From: Pirellulales bacterium
GTDB taxonomy: Bacteria; Planctomycetota; Planctomycetia; Pirellulales; JAEUIK01
Assembly: GCA_019694435.1 (NCBI GenBank)
Contig: JAIBBZ010000002.1
Location: forward strand, 310,001 to 374,000
DNA: 64,000 nt
Reading direction: 5' to 3'
Shown: in pieces, positions 57,083 to 63,544 of the stretch
How the letters are laid out: the number at the start of each line of letters is the position of its first letter
How positions within the stretch are numbered: position 1 is the first letter of the stretch
Program-made: the position numbers and the translations under genes
The notes under the pieces: model-generated
Told to the model about the DNA's origin: nothing
The model's database searches: none
Seen by the model: the letters and a program-made list of their open reading frames with translations, nothing else

Positions 57083-58507
57083 TCAGGCCAAAAGTTCGGA
57101 AATCACTTGTCCATGCACGTCGGTCAGCCGGCGATCGATACCGTTGTGTCGCCAGGTGAGCCGGCGGTGGTCGATCCCCAACAGGTGCAGCACGGTCGCG
57201 TGCAGATCGTAACAGTAAGTTGGCTGCTCGACGGCGCGGAAACCCCACTCGTCGCTCGCACCATAGGTCACCCCGCCGCGAATGCCGCCTCCCGCCAAAA
57301 AGGAGGTAAACGCGTCGGGGTTGTGATCCCGGCCCTTGCCGCCCTGGCTGCACGGCATGCGGCCGAATTCGGTCGTCCAGATCACGATCGTATCTGTCAA
57401 CAGGCCCCGGTCCTTCAAGTCGGCAATCAACGCCGCGGCCGGGCCGTCCATACTCAGGCCCATCACGCCATGATCACGGGCCAGGTCTTCGTGGCTGTCC
57501 CAGTTGCGGCGCGGGAAGCCGTTGTCGGCGCCGCTGAAGAGCTGCACGAACCGCACGCCCCGTTCGAGCAGCCGGCGGGCCACCAGGCAGTTGCGGCCGA
57601 AATCCTCGGTCTCCGGGCGATGCAAACCGTACCGCTCGAGCGTGGCCGCCGTCTCCTGGCTGAAGTCGAGCACCTCGGGTGCGCTCAATTGCAGCCGCGC
57701 GGCAAGTTCATAGCTGGCAATCCTCGCCGCCAGCCGCGAATCATCCTGGCGATCGGCCAGATGACTGCGATTGAGTTGATCGAGCAAGGCTCGCCCTTCG
57801 GTCTCGGCCGACGAGGTCAGGTAATCGACCGGCGGCGGATAGAGATCGAAGATCGGGTTGGCCGTGCCGGGGCGGACCATCGTGCCCTGGTACTGCGCAG
57901 GCAGAAATCCGGCGCTCCAGTTCGCCGGGCCATTGGGAGCGAACCCCCGGCGATCGGGCAGCACCACGAACGACGGCAGGTTGTCGTTCATGTTGCCCAG
58001 GGCATAGCTGATCCAGCTTCCCATACTCGGAAAGCCGGGCAGTACGAAACCGGTGTTCTGCATGAACGTGGCCGGCCCGTGTACGTTCGACTTGCTTTGC
58101 ATCGAATGGATAAAGGCCAGGTCGTCAACCACCTCGGCGAGCCGGGGCACCAGGTCGCTCATCCACTTGCCGCACTCGCCATATTGGCGCCAGCCCCAGG
58201 GGCTTTTCATGACGCTGCCGGGCGAGCTTTGGAACAGCTCGACCTTGCCGCCGGGTTCGAAGGCCTGGCCATCGCGGCGGATCAACTCGGGCTTGTAGTC
58301 GAACAAATCGACCTGGCTGGCCGCACCCGACATGAACATCTGCACGATGCGCCGCGCCCGGGCCGGATGGTGCAGGCCGTCGGCGGCGCGGACCTCGTCG
58401 CGTGCGAGGATTTCGGCCAGGGCCAGAGCGCCGAAGCCACCGCCGGCGCGGCGCAAGAATTCACGGCGCCCCAGCGGCTCGGCGGTATTGGTGGCTCGGG
58501 TGGTCAT
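57083..58507 (-). CDS. DUF1501 family protein with Tat-type signal
   Basis: Second DUF1501 gene, 474 residues. The N-terminus GRREFLRRAGGGFGALALAEIL carries the twin-arginine pattern. Family landmarks are VQMFMSGAASQVDLFDYKP, GNMNDNLPSFVVLPD, GRNCLVARRLLERGVRFVQLF, VIWTTEFGRMPCSQG, KGRDHNPDAFTSFLAGGG and the closing VLHLLGIDHRRLTWRHNG. This is the commoner planctomycete form that pairs with a DUF1549/DUF1553 cytochrome, here the gene ending 18 bp upstream. The pair is probably exported and acts together, perhaps on polysaccharide or other polymer, but no activity is proven. It is only distantly related to the DUF1501 protein at 6422. Confidence 0.92.
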   Translation of the reverse strand: MTTRATNTAEPLGRREFLRRAGGGFGALALAEILARDEVRAADGLHHPARARRIVQMFMSGAASQVDLFDYKPELIRRDGQAFEPGGKVELFQSSPGSVMKSPWGWRQYGECGKWMSDLVPRLAEVVDDLAFIHSMQSKSNVHGPATFMQNTGFVLPGFPSMGSWISYALGNMNDNLPSFVVLPDRRGFAPNGPANWSAGFLPAQYQGTMVRPGTANPIFDLYPPPVDYLTSSAETEGRALLDQLNRSHLADRQDDSRLAARIASYELAARLQLSAPEVLDFSQETAATLERYGLHRPETEDFGRNCLVARRLLERGVRFVQLFSGADNGFPRRNWDSHEDLARDHGVMGLSMDGPAAALIADLKDRGLLTDTIVIWTTEFGRMPCSQGGKGRDHNPDAFTSFLAGGGIRGGVTYGASDEWGFRAVEQPTYCYDLHATVLHLLGIDHRRLTWRHNGIDRRLTDVHGQVISELLA

Positions 58508-58525
58508 GGCACGATCGTCCCGCGG

Positions 58526-61500
58526 TCAATCGACAAAGACGAACTCGTTGGCATTCAACAGCAATCGGCACATGGCCGCCAGGCCGTGCTGGCGGGCATA
58601 GTCTTCCAGCAGGCGGGCCTCGTCGTCGCGTGGTGCGCGGCCAAAGCTGCGGCGTACGGCGGTGCGCACCTGCGTCGCAAGGTCGGGCGATTCGGCCGCG
58701 AGCAGTGCGCCGAAATGTTCGGACTCGCCCAGGACGAACGGATCGTTCAACAGGGCCAGGGCCTGCAGAGCGGTGATTGTCGTGTTGCGCTTGGGGGTCA
58801 GGGCCGACGGATCGGCGCAATCGAGCACCTCGAAGAACGGGTTCGGCACGCTGCGAACAATGAAGCGATAGACGCTGCGGCGATTGACCTTTGGCGCCTC
58901 GGGCGAGGCGTAGTCGTAGACCGGCGAATGATCGTCCTTGAAGCGGAACAGGTCATAGCCGGGGCCACCTGCCGCGAGCTCCAATCGACCGCTCGTGGCG
59001 AGCATGCTGTCGCGCAATTCCTCGGCATCGAGCCGCCGGCGGTTGGCGCGGCTGAGCCAGCGGTTGTCGGCGTCGTGGGCCAGCTTCGCCTCGTCGACGG
59101 TCGACGCCTGGCGATAGACGGCGCTGGTGACGATCAGCCGGTGCAATTCCTTGAGCGACTGGCCGTGGTCGCGGAATTCGGCCGCCAGCCAGTCGAGCAG
59201 TTCGGGATGCGTCGGTTTCGAGCCATTGCGGCCGAAGTCGTTGGGCGTATCGACGAGGCCGCGGCCGAAATGGTATTGCCACACGCGATTCGCGATCGAA
59301 CGCCAGGTGAGCGGGTTGCGCGGATCGGCAATCCACCGGGCGAGGGACAGTCGGCGCTGACCCTCGGCAGCCTCGCCGGGCAGTTCGAACGTGGCCGGCA
59401 ACGCTGCGATCGCGGCCAGCGCCCCGGGACCGACCGCCTCGCCCGGTTGCTCGACGTTGCCGCGGACCAACAGGAAAATGGGCCGGGGCTCGCGCGAACG
59501 AACTGCATAGACCTGCTCGGACGCGAGCGCGGCCTCGATCTCCTGGTCGATCCGGGCACACTCGGCTTCGATCTCGGCGATTGCGCCGCGCAAGGCCGTG
59601 ATGCCGGAGCCCGTTTCGAGCGCGACAATCTCTGCGCCGAGTTCGGCACGCTGTTGGGCCCGGTCGGCCAGGTTCGCCAGCCTAGCGCGCAGCTCGTCGG
59701 TCAGCTCGGGCAGGCGACGGCGGCTGCCCTGGCCATCGACCAAGGCATGCGTATGCCAGCGCCCGGCGTCAATCGTGTCGAGCGCCGTGACGGCGGCCTC
59801 AGCGGCGACGTTCCGCCCCGACGATTCGACCTGGAGCTCGGCCAGGGCAAAACAATAGTCGCCCGAGCGGGGCCAGAGCCGCGTGGCCGTGATGCGCACA
59901 TACCGCGCCACGGCGCCCGCCGCGGCGAAGTGCACCGGTTGAGTTCCCGGATTGACGTAGTCCTCCGTCGTCTCGTCGGCGATCGTCTGTCCATCGGCCA
60001 GGTCCGGCTGGCTGCCGATCGTCACCCGAAATCGCACCGGAAAGCCGAATCCCGGCGTGTCGGCGAAATCCGTCGGCCGCGCCGGCACCAATCGCACCAG
60101 ATCGATCGGCATCGCCGCGCCCAGGTCGATCTGAACCCACTTCGTTGCGTCGCTCTGCGCCTCGATCGCGCTGTGATAGCCGTTCGTCGTGCTGGGGAGC
60201 AGTCGCTCGTCGTCCCAAGGGTTGTCGGCCGTGGTCTGCTGGCCGTGCAGCTCGTCCAGCCGACGGCGCGCAGCACGGAGGTCGTCGGTTGTCAGCCGCT
60301 CGATTTGTGCGGCGTGCTTTTGCTTTTGCTCGACCAGGCCATTTCGCGTCGTGCGCAACCGCGCGGCGGCCGCTTGCGCCTCGGGACCAGGGCAGGCGAC
60401 GTCGGCCCGGCCGACGCCCGCGAACACGGCCTGCAGACGGTAGTAGTCGCGTTGCGTGATCGGATCGAACGGGTGATCGTGGCACCGGGCACAATGGGCC
60501 GTGACGCTGCAAAAGGTGCCCATCGTCGCGGCCACCATATCGTCGCGGTCGAGGGTCAGCGTCTTGGCCTTTTCGACCGTGTTCTCCCCAAGCTCGACCT
60601 GGCCGACGAAATCCCACGGTCCGGCGGAGATGAAACCCGTCGCCACGCGGGCTTGTGGATTGTCGGGCGCAAGCACGTCGCCCGCGAGTTGCTGGGTGAT
60701 GAAATCGCCGTACGGCAAGTCGCGGTTCAAGGCGGCGATGACCCAATCGCGGTAACGCCAGGCGTGGTTGCGGCGCTTGTCCTTGTCGTAGCCATGCGTG
60801 TCGCCATAGTGCACCACGTCGAGCCAGTGCTGGGCCCAGCGTTCGCCGTAGCGCGGCGATTGCAGCAGGCGATCGACGACGCGCTCGTAGGCATCAGGCT
60901 GCCGGTCGGCGACGAAGGCGTCGATTTCGGCGGGCGACGGCGGCAGGCCGTGCAGATCGAATGTGAGGCGCCGCAACAGGGCTTCGCGGCCGGCCTCGGG
61001 CGCGGGCTCGAGGTGTTCGGCCGCGAGCCGCGCGGCGACGAACGCATCGATCGGCGTGCGGCACCACGCGTTGGCGGCCGGTACATCGGGCTGCTTGAGT
61101 TCGACCAACGACCACCACGACAGGTTCGCCGAGCGGTCGGTTAAGGTCTGTTCGGCCGGCCAGACGGCCCCGGCATCGATCCACTGCCGCAGCCCCGCGA
61201 CCTGGTCTTCCGTGAGTCGTGGGCCATCCTGGGGCATCGCCGGCTCGTCGCCGGCGACCATGTCGACCAGCAGGCTTTCCGCGGCGCGGCCGGCAACCAA
61301 TGCGGGGCCCGAATCGCCGCCGGCGAAGGCACGCTCGCGGGTTTCGAGCGACAGTCCCCCCCGGGCCGTCTCGCCATGATGGCAACTCAGGCAGCGTGTC
61401 TCGAGCAGGGGGGCAATCTGCGCGGCGAAAAACTCCGGCGCATCAGCCGCAGGGTCTGCCCAGGCCCTGCCGGGGAATGCCCCGCATGCCAGCACGGCGC

Positions 61501-61555
61501 AGGCGGTTGCTAATCGAAGAGTCATCCTGAGCGAACTGACTCGCCGCCGGCCCAT
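58526..61555 (-). CDS. Secreted cytochrome c / DUF1549 / DUF1553 protein with discoidin-like insert
   Basis: 1009 residues from ATG 61555 (the 57 codons further up are not protein-like). The signal peptide LRLATACAVLACGAFPGRAWA precedes a planctomycete cytochrome c domain (PSCyt1) with the haem site CLSCH and a likely axial methionine in DEPAMPQDGPRL. DUF1549 (PSCyt2) follows with WCRTPIDAFVAARLA and GERWAQHWLDVVHYGDTHGY. An F5/8 type C (discoidin)-like carbohydrate-binding insert (about 445-560) shows TKWVQIDLGAAMPIDLVRL. A coiled-coil-like stretch and DUF1553 end it (NPLTWRSIANRVWQYHFGRGLVDTPNDFG). It heads a three-gene unit with DUF1501 and the sigma-54 activator. Its function is probably extracellular, polymer-related electron transfer or binding. 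Confidence 0.9.
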   Translation of the reverse strand: MGRRRVSSLRMTLRLATACAVLACGAFPGRAWADPAADAPEFFAAQIAPLLETRCLSCHHGETARGGLSLETRERAFAGGDSGPALVAGRAAESLLVDMVAGDEPAMPQDGPRLTEDQVAGLRQWIDAGAVWPAEQTLTDRSANLSWWSLVELKQPDVPAANAWCRTPIDAFVAARLAAEHLEPAPEAGREALLRRLTFDLHGLPPSPAEIDAFVADRQPDAYERVVDRLLQSPRYGERWAQHWLDVVHYGDTHGYDKDKRRNHAWRYRDWVIAALNRDLPYGDFITQQLAGDVLAPDNPQARVATGFISAGPWDFVGQVELGENTVEKAKTLTLDRDDMVAATMGTFCSVTAHCARCHDHPFDPITQRDYYRLQAVFAGVGRADVACPGPEAQAAAARLRTTRNGLVEQKQKHAAQIERLTTDDLRAARRRLDELHGQQTTADNPWDDERLLPSTTNGYHSAIEAQSDATKWVQIDLGAAMPIDLVRLVPARPTDFADTPGFGFPVRFRVTIGSQPDLADGQTIADETTEDYVNPGTQPVHFAAAGAVARYVRITATRLWPRSGDYCFALAELQVESSGRNVAAEAAVTALDTIDAGRWHTHALVDGQGSRRRLPELTDELRARLANLADRAQQRAELGAEIVALETGSGITALRGAIAEIEAECARIDQEIEAALASEQVYAVRSREPRPIFLLVRGNVEQPGEAVGPGALAAIAALPATFELPGEAAEGQRRLSLARWIADPRNPLTWRSIANRVWQYHFGRGLVDTPNDFGRNGSKPTHPELLDWLAAEFRDHGQSLKELHRLIVTSAVYRQASTVDEAKLAHDADNRWLSRANRRRLDAEELRDSMLATSGRLELAAGGPGYDLFRFKDDHSPVYDYASPEAPKVNRRSVYRFIVRSVPNPFFEVLDCADPSALTPKRNTTITALQALALLNDPFVLGESEHFGALLAAESPDLATQVRTAVRRSFGRAPRDDEARLLEDYARQHGLAAMCRLLLNANEFVFVD

Positions 61556-61581
61556 GCGCGCGTCCTCAATGCGTGTGTGCC

Positions 61582-61610
61582 AGTGTAGTTGCGCCGCGGC
61601 CGGCCAACAA
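61582..61610 (-). promoter_or_regulatory. Candidate promoter of the cytochrome/DUF1501/activator operon
   Basis: On the minus strand TTGTTG, 17 bp, then TACACT (plus-strand 61605-61610 and 61582-61587). The -10 matches at four of six positions. Transcription would begin about 20 nt before ATG 61555, which supports that start. No -24/-12 sigma-54 element was seen here. Confidence 0.35.
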
Positions 61611-61735
61611 CGAACCACCCCAGGGGTGGCCCTGCCCCCGGCGCCGATCAACCAACTGTCCGGTGCAGGATTCTGGGGCCTCGGTTCCCGAGTCTGCAAG
61701 GCGTTTTGTCGCCGGGCCGTGCCCACGAACCCGCG

Positions 61736-61764
61736 TTGTGCCCTAGAGTTGTAATGCGGATAAT
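61736..61764 (+). promoter_or_regulatory. Candidate promoter of the 2-oxoacid decarboxylase
   Basis: TTGTGC (61736-61741), 17 bp, then GATAAT (61759-61764), a five-of-six -10 match. Transcription would start at about 61771, within the left arm of the leader hairpin, leaving a leader of roughly 55 nt. Confidence 0.35.
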
Positions 61765-61766
61765 TC

Positions 61767-61819
61767 GGCCGCCTGATGAGGCGCTTTTCAGCCTCAAGAT
61801 GCGCAGGCGGCCAGGAGGG
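61767..61819 (+). promoter_or_regulatory. Nested hairpin directly before the SD of the decarboxylase gene
   Basis: Outer arms GGCCGCCTG (61767-61775) and CAGGCGGCC (61804-61812) pair perfectly over 9 bp. Inside, TGAGGC (61777-61782) and GCCTCA (61791-61796) form a second 6-bp stem. The SD AGGAGGG (61813-61819) starts at the very next base, and ATG 61826 follows 6 nt later. The layout suggests control of ribosome access. No thiamine riboswitch consensus was recognised. Confidence 0.5.
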
Positions 61820-61825
61820 CTTCGC

Positions 61826-63544
61826 ATGTCGCAGACCGGCAATCCGTTCACTTCCTTCGACCCCGGGCCGCTCGTGGCCGGGATGGTGAGCCCGATGAAC
61901 CGTGAGAGCGTGGCGGGCTTGTCGATCGGCGATTACCTGATTCGCCGGTTGCAGGACTACGGCATTCGCGACGTGTTCGGCATCCCGGGCGACTACGTCT
62001 TGTCGTTCTACTCGATGCTGTCAAACAGCCCGATCCGCGTGATCGGCTGCTGCAAGGAAGACCATGCCGGGTTCGCCGCCGACGCGTATGCCCGCATCAA
62101 CGGCATGGGCGCCGTCTGCGTGACCTATTGCGTGGGCGGGCTGAGCATCTGCAACTCGATCGCGGGGGCGTATGCCGAGAAATCGCCCGTCGTGGTCATC
62201 ACCGGCTCGCCGGGCCTGAACGAGCGGCATAACAACCCGCTCTTGCATCACAAGGTGCGCGATTTCCGCACGCAGTATGAGGTGTTCGAAAAGCTCTGCG
62301 TCGCAGGCACCGAGCTGCACGACCCGCCGACGGCCTTCCGCGAGATCGATCGCGTCCTCGACACGGTTTATCGCGTCAAGCGACCGGGCTACATCGAGAT
62401 CCCTCGCGATATGGTCAAGGTGGTGCCCGACGCGCCGCACGCCTATGTGACGGCCGAGCCGCAGAGCGATCCCGAGGCGTTGGCCGAGGCCGTGTCCGAG
62501 GCGGCCGCGGCGATCGAGTCTGCGCGGCGCCCGGTGATCATCGCCGGCGTCGAGATTCACCGCTTTGGTCTGCAAGACGCCGTGCTGGCGCTGGGCGAGG
62601 GCTCGCAAATCGCCATGGCCTCGACCTTGCTGGGCAAGAGCGTGCTGCCCGAGACGCATCCGTTGTTCATCGGGCTCTACGAAGGCGCGATGGGGCGCGA
62701 GGAGGTCACGCGGTTTGTCGAGGAGAGCGATTGCGTCGTGCTGCTCGGCACGTTCATGACCGACATCAACCTCGGGATCTACACGGCCAATCTCGACCCG
62801 CGCAAGTGCATCTACGCGACGAGCGAGCAGTTGCGGATTCGGCATCACCACTACCACGGCGTGGTGCTGGGCGATTTCATCCGCGGCCTGGCCGAGCGCA
62901 AGCCCACGGCCGCGCGGCGCGAGCTGCCCCGGCGCTGTGAGCTGCGCGTCGCGCCCGAGGCCAATCGACCCGAGGCTCCGATCACGATCGAACGCATGAT
63001 CGCCCGGCTGAACGACACGATCGACGATCACACGATCGTGATTGCCGACGTCGGCGACGCGCTGTTCGGAGCGACCGAGCTGACGATCCGGCAGCGGACC
63101 GAGTTCTTGAGCCCCGCGTATTACACCTCGATGGGCTTCGCCGTGCCTGCGGCGCTGGGAGCCTGCGTGGCCCGGCGCGATCTGCGTCCGGTGGTCCTGG
63201 TCGGGGACGGGGCGTTTCAGATGACCGGTATGGAACTCTCGACGATCGTCCGGCTCGGGTTCGCGCCGATCGTGATGGTGCTCGATAACAAAGGTTACGG
63301 CACCGAGCGGTTCTTGCACCCGGGCGACTTCAACGACATTCACCCCTGGCACTATGCCCGCTTGCCTGAGGTGTTAGGCGGCGGCACCGGCTACGAGGTG
63401 CGGACCGTGGCCGAATTCGACCGTGCGCTGGCCAAGGCGTGGCAAGATCGCAGTGCGATGAGCTTGATCCAAGTGCACATCGGCCTCGAAGACCGCAGCC
63501 AGACGCTCGACCGGCTGGCCGAACGGCTCAGCAAGCGCGTGTGA
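61826..63544 (+). CDS. Thiamine-diphosphate 2-oxoacid decarboxylase (pyruvate/indolepyruvate decarboxylase family)
   Basis: Non-oxidative decarboxylation of a 2-oxoacid to an aldehyde. 572 residues from ATG 61826, chosen because AGGAGGG lies 6 nt upstream; the longer open frame is not protein-like. The ThDP-activating glutamate is in [16 protein letters not shown] (about 79). The paired histidines typical of pyruvate and indolepyruvate decarboxylases are in LLHHKVRDF (about 141-142). The cofactor motif runs from [19 protein letters not shown] (about 461) to [11 protein letters not shown], with the late glutamate present. All catalytic positions are kept. Whether it prefers pyruvate, phenylpyruvate or indolepyruvate cannot be told. 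It is divergent from the cytochrome operon. Confidence 0.85.

Follow-up and report, generated by a model that had tools for sequence, protein, structure and literature searches.

In the 64-kb window, i.e. the whole stretch of DNA that was analysed, a nested inverted repeat lies directly beside the Shine-Dalgarno sequence of a gene for a thiamine-diphosphate enzyme. The features of this locus, all on the forward (+) strand, are as follows.

61736-61741, + strand: -35 element TTGTGC of the proposed promoter, 17 nt ahead of the -10 element; its TTG is enriched in orthologs
61759-61764, + strand: -10 element GATAAT of the proposed promoter, the top hexamer by the ortholog matrix and enriched in orthologs
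61770-61772, + strand: predicted transcription start, at about 61771, from the usual spacing after a -10 box
61767-61775, + strand: left arm of the outer stem, GGCCGCCTG, read in the sequence
61777-61782, + strand: left arm of the inner stem, TGAGGC, from the sequence and RNAfold
61791-61796, + strand: right arm of the inner stem, GCCTCA, from the sequence and RNAfold
61804-61812, + strand: right arm of the outer stem, CAGGCGGCC, read in the sequence
61813-61819, + strand: Shine-Dalgarno sequence AGGAGGG, read in the sequence
61826-63544, + strand: decarboxylase gene; the 572-aa product is a thiamine-diphosphate 2-oxoacid decarboxylase resembling phenylpyruvate/indolepyruvate decarboxylases by its domains, profile and solved relative

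The gene begins with an ATG at 61826, and the original prediction that it encodes a thiamine-diphosphate enzyme was borne out. The 572-aa protein, from a Pirellulales-like planctomycete, contains three TPP-enzyme domains, and its best solved relative is the phenylpyruvate decarboxylase 2nxw (E 7.2e-99). It scored 423.9 bits (E 1e-126) against TIGR03394 (indolepyruvate/phenylpyruvate decarboxylase), below the curated cut-off of 554.5, and is a relative of this family but, by the cut-off rule, not a member. A decarboxylase match was detected in 76 of the 77 genomes searched (own genome included); in 58 of the 76 other genomes the match was close (61-74% identity), and in the remainder it was remote or absent. 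The named relatives are planctomycetes by label, many of them Pirellulales (e.g. Blastopirellula marina and Adhaeretor mobilis); a few sources were labelled just "bacterium", and one was labelled Candidatus Kuenenia. Upstream of the decarboxylase lies a divergent gene encoding a PSCyt1/PSCyt2/PSD1 protein.

The arms and coordinates of the nested hairpin were confirmed in the sequence, as was its position next to AGGAGGG. The outer stem is a perfect 9 bp, with the 6-bp inner stem nested within it, and the Shine-Dalgarno sequence lies outside the stem, adjoining its right arm directly. Computation recovered both stems: RNAfold predicted them in the segment 61757-61850 (-38.1 kcal/mol, z -1.69), for which 10 of 200 shuffled sequences were equally or more stable.

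For the promoter, GATAAT was the best hexamer in the leader (10.7 bits with a matrix built without the window), followed by TGTAAT (5.8 bits) and TAGAGT (3.7 bits). A simple consensus promoter scan listed no promoter at the leader, because TTGTGC matches the -35 consensus in just three of six positions. This is the respect in which the candidate differs from a sigma-70-type promoter (-35 TTGACA, 16-18 nt, -10 TATAAT); the initial TTG, the 17-nt spacer and a -10 hexamer close to TATAAT are shared with that type, here and in many ortholog leaders. From the -10 box ending at 61764, and assuming the usual spacing, we infer a transcription start near 61771. The best promoter candidate therefore agrees with the original prediction of a start inside the left arm.

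Comparison with the orthologs gave a computed footprint of the same kind. In total, 116 distinct leaders (own included) were gathered from 138 loci located with tblastn, and the relatives compared all lie outside the organism's own genus. The most enriched words in these leaders were -10 boxes, namely GTACAAT (13 of 113 leaders, 0.23 expected), TAGAAT (also 13 of 113, 1.28 expected) and GATAAT (11 leaders, 1.93 expected). A -10-like box 40-110 nt before the start was present in 37 of 116 ortholog leaders and in 6 of 288 control leaders (Fisher p 1e-16, a value that is too small because the leaders are related and the two groups were not paired by genome); it was found in 12 of 155 leaders of a smaller control set, and in 1 of the 158 own-genome leaders of the larger one. 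Some starts are probably wrong, including those of orthologs such as L039 and L042, and the control starts are simple script calls without annotation. Among the ortholog leaders with a box, 11 of 39 carried TTG at a spacer of 17-18 nt (binomial p 2e-6, likewise too small a value for the reasons just given). The -10 columns of the matrix follow from the expression that picked the boxes, and the TTG excess is independent of it. In two genomes of the same family (L008 and L010), the window's promoter block aligned with CGCATTG...GATAATTC. Judging from these comparisons, the relatives probably share an ordinary sigma-70-like promoter, which is TTGTGC-17-GATAAT in the window and would start the message inside the hairpin. 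A useful by-product of the comparison is a promoter footprint upstream of this gene's orthologs in Pirellulales-like planctomycetes, namely TTG, 17-18 nt and then (G/C/T)ATAAT or TA(C/G)AAT; full-text literature searches returned no paper evidently on planctomycete promoters or on the decarboxylase in planctomycetes.

The hairpin itself had no such counterpart. A short-word BLAST of the window leader against the other 115 leaders detected no resemblance beyond three matches of 10 bases (E 2.7); no common stem emerged when the window leader was aligned with ten relatives, and no similar leader was present in the six other genomes of the same family. A structure model of the hairpin, which scores its own sequence at 94.7 bits and, with two copies of the window sequence as its only input, mainly tests close likeness, detected no coding-strand match within 250 nt upstream of an assigned start in the 137 other ortholog loci (99 + 38). 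The matches nearest to this description were on the opposite strand at -53 to -19 in L029 and its duplicate L073 (14.9 bits), on the opposite strand at -183 to -117 in L017 (9.6 bits), and on the coding strand in L054, about 240 nt ahead of the matched part of a gene without an assigned start (9.9 bits, E 3.7). Elsewhere in these loci, the highest scores were 20.6 bits, for a match within the gene itself in L138, and 19.7 bits, for one at 57339-57369 of the window. In 39 other genomes the model gave weak, scattered matches with a top score of 23.6 bits; among the matches listed, none lay closer than 46 kb to the close decarboxylase gene of its genome, where one was present, and in three genomes a listed match was on the decarboxylase contig at a greater distance than this. 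The original prediction was to be abandoned if neither stem proved conserved, and by alignment and structure model neither was conserved in the available relatives, none of them of the same genus. As far as comparison with relatives outside the genus goes, the hairpin lacks a counterpart in the ortholog leaders and is not a conserved cis-regulatory RNA in the sense of stems kept with covariation.

A TPP riboswitch (RF00059) was suggested by the position of the leader before a thiamine-diphosphate enzyme gene, and thiamine riboswitch models had been proposed as a check. This candidate was rejected: RF00059 had no hit reaching its gathering score anywhere in the window, no hit up to E 10 within 61500-61900 and no hit at E 0.001 in the organism's own genome, compared with 10 of 14 control genomes in which the riboswitch was present. 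No Rfam family of any kind matched the leader at the gathering score.

Inverted repeats of this type were not in excess over chance. At loop lengths of 3-40 nt, the window has 19 perfect 9-bp inverted repeats, whereas 30 dinucleotide-shuffled versions averaged 24.0 (sd 4.9). Just one of the 19, the present hairpin, encloses a nested 6-bp stem; the shuffled versions averaged 0.8 (sd 0.8) such cases. Nested hairpins such as this one are expected by chance in 64 kb of GC-rich DNA. If only the 300-nt intergenic region is considered, shuffling seldom produces a nested pair (0.17% of 3000 shuffles); the 64-kb figure, which ignores the position of the hairpin beside the ribosome site, is the fairer one because the whole window had been scanned when the hairpin was picked out. 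Ortholog leaders were also not enriched in such repeats, as perfect 9-bp repeats preceded the start in 5 of 116 orthologs and in 8 of 288 other intergenic leaders (p 0.53). An apparent excess over a smaller first control set (5 of 116 orthologs, compared with 0 of 155 leaders drawn from the collected loci and from the window) was gone with the larger set. In one control leader, L172 (z -8.56), a long inverted repeat without mismatches, made up of GTCAGGTACTCCGTACCTGAC and its complement, lies ahead of the script-called start.

Taken together, the data make it likely that the locus consists of an ordinary sigma-70-like promoter and a leader with a chance inverted repeat. The leader would be an ordinary 5' untranslated region, transcribed from TTGTGC-17-GATAAT with +1 near 61771, and would carry a good Shine-Dalgarno sequence followed by the ATG at 61826. 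With a start at the predicted site, the transcript would retain about five bases of the left arm, so that the outer stem would be mostly unformed, and the 6-bp inner hairpin alone would lie near the 5' end, where it might at most steady the message modestly. Because the repeat is unconserved and shows no excess over controls, and because neither an Rfam match in the leader nor a TPP riboswitch in the genome was found, we infer that the hairpin has no function and that it is most likely a lineage-specific, chance feature of GC-rich DNA. The hairpin is a real sequence without sign of selection, and as a lead it is mostly closed.

In the E. coli ompA leader, a stem-loop at the 5' terminus shields the message from decay that depends on the 5' end. 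A putative stem-loop of the same type would, by analogy, consist of the stem that lies close to the predicted 5' end, with the ribosome site after it as in ompA; it would not require sequence conservation, because pairing counts and sequence does not, so that each lineage could have a hairpin of its own. In agreement with this, the 48 nt past the -10 box in the window have a strong fold (z -4.63), and strong folds formed by unrelated hairpins were detected at the same place in some orthologs (foremost L050, L002, L099, L028 and L022; z -5.66 for L050, -3.09 for L099, -3.09 for L028 and -2.94 for L022, with L022 and L028 being near-identical leaders). Among the 37 leaders with a -10 box, nine had z < -1.65 after the box and five had z < -2.5, which is more than a normal distribution would give (controls with a box, n=6); the other 28 had z >= -1.65. 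The mean difference depended on the controls: z after the box averaged -0.85 (n=37) against 0.05 (n=12) with the 155-leader set (p 0.049), and -0.87 (n=37) against -0.24 (n=6) with the 288-leader set (p 0.57). The 68 nt next to the Shine-Dalgarno sequence were no more structured in orthologs (mean z -0.31, n=115) than in the 288 control leaders (-0.19; p 0.24), and here, unlike in ompA, the predicted start lies within the left arm and would cut the hairpin. We regard a stabilising stem-loop as unlikely, though less so than the other alternatives.

In L050 (G011), the ortholog with the strongest fold, TACAAT is directly followed by a long hairpin with about 14-15 pairs, some 25-65 nt ahead of the start. 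In L038, L108 and L021, short palindromes span the -10 box or come immediately after it, with a different sequence in each.

A bolder version of this idea would be that decarboxylase messages begin with a fast-evolving hairpin at +1, whose position is kept and whose sequence is not, and that shifts of the start by one or two bases set the extent of the hairpin and hence the stability or translatability of the message. We consider this very improbable.

The original prediction also held that choice of the start site could switch the structure on or off. In such a model, starts up to about 61769 would give the full hairpin and later ones would not, altering access to the ribosome site. The modelled folds do differ over this range. 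With a start at 61770 six outer pairs were kept in the predicted fold, the energies being nearly equal (-27.9 vs -27.8 kcal/mol), and with starts at 61771 or later the outer stem was gone from the minimum-energy fold. Between starts at 61769 and 61771 the Shine-Dalgarno bases became more accessible, their mean unpaired probability rising from 0.30 to 0.66, but the value for the AUG fell simultaneously from 0.85 to 0.39, and these opposite changes argue against a clean on/off switch. The Shine-Dalgarno sequence is also outside the stem, only the weaker -10 candidates (TGTAAT and TAGAGT) would give starts that include the whole stem, and the stems are unconserved. A start-controlled switch was consequently not upheld, and we regard it as scarcely credible.

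Equally improbable is a DNA operator, with a repressor binding the inner palindrome TGAGGC-N8-GCCTCA or the outer repeat: the palindrome would lie just past the start (at roughly +7 to +26, counted from the predicted +1), but both repeats are present in a single genomic copy, so that no regulon of exact sites is visible, and the palindrome was not found before the orthologous gene. With no second exact copy of either repeat in the genome, the readings as a repeated element or regulon operator were rejected.

Two further observations concern the DNA upstream of the decarboxylase. In nine ortholog loci (L045, L047, L048, L102, L110, L119, L121, L124 and L130) this DNA resembles, by eye, a similar end of one coding sequence, possibly that of a small membrane protein; the window has the divergent PSCyt1/PSD1 gene instead. 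An open frame of 1345 codons (57107-61144, + strand) runs antisense to the PSCyt1/PSD1 and DUF1501 genes, and is probably a by-product of GC-rich coding sequence.
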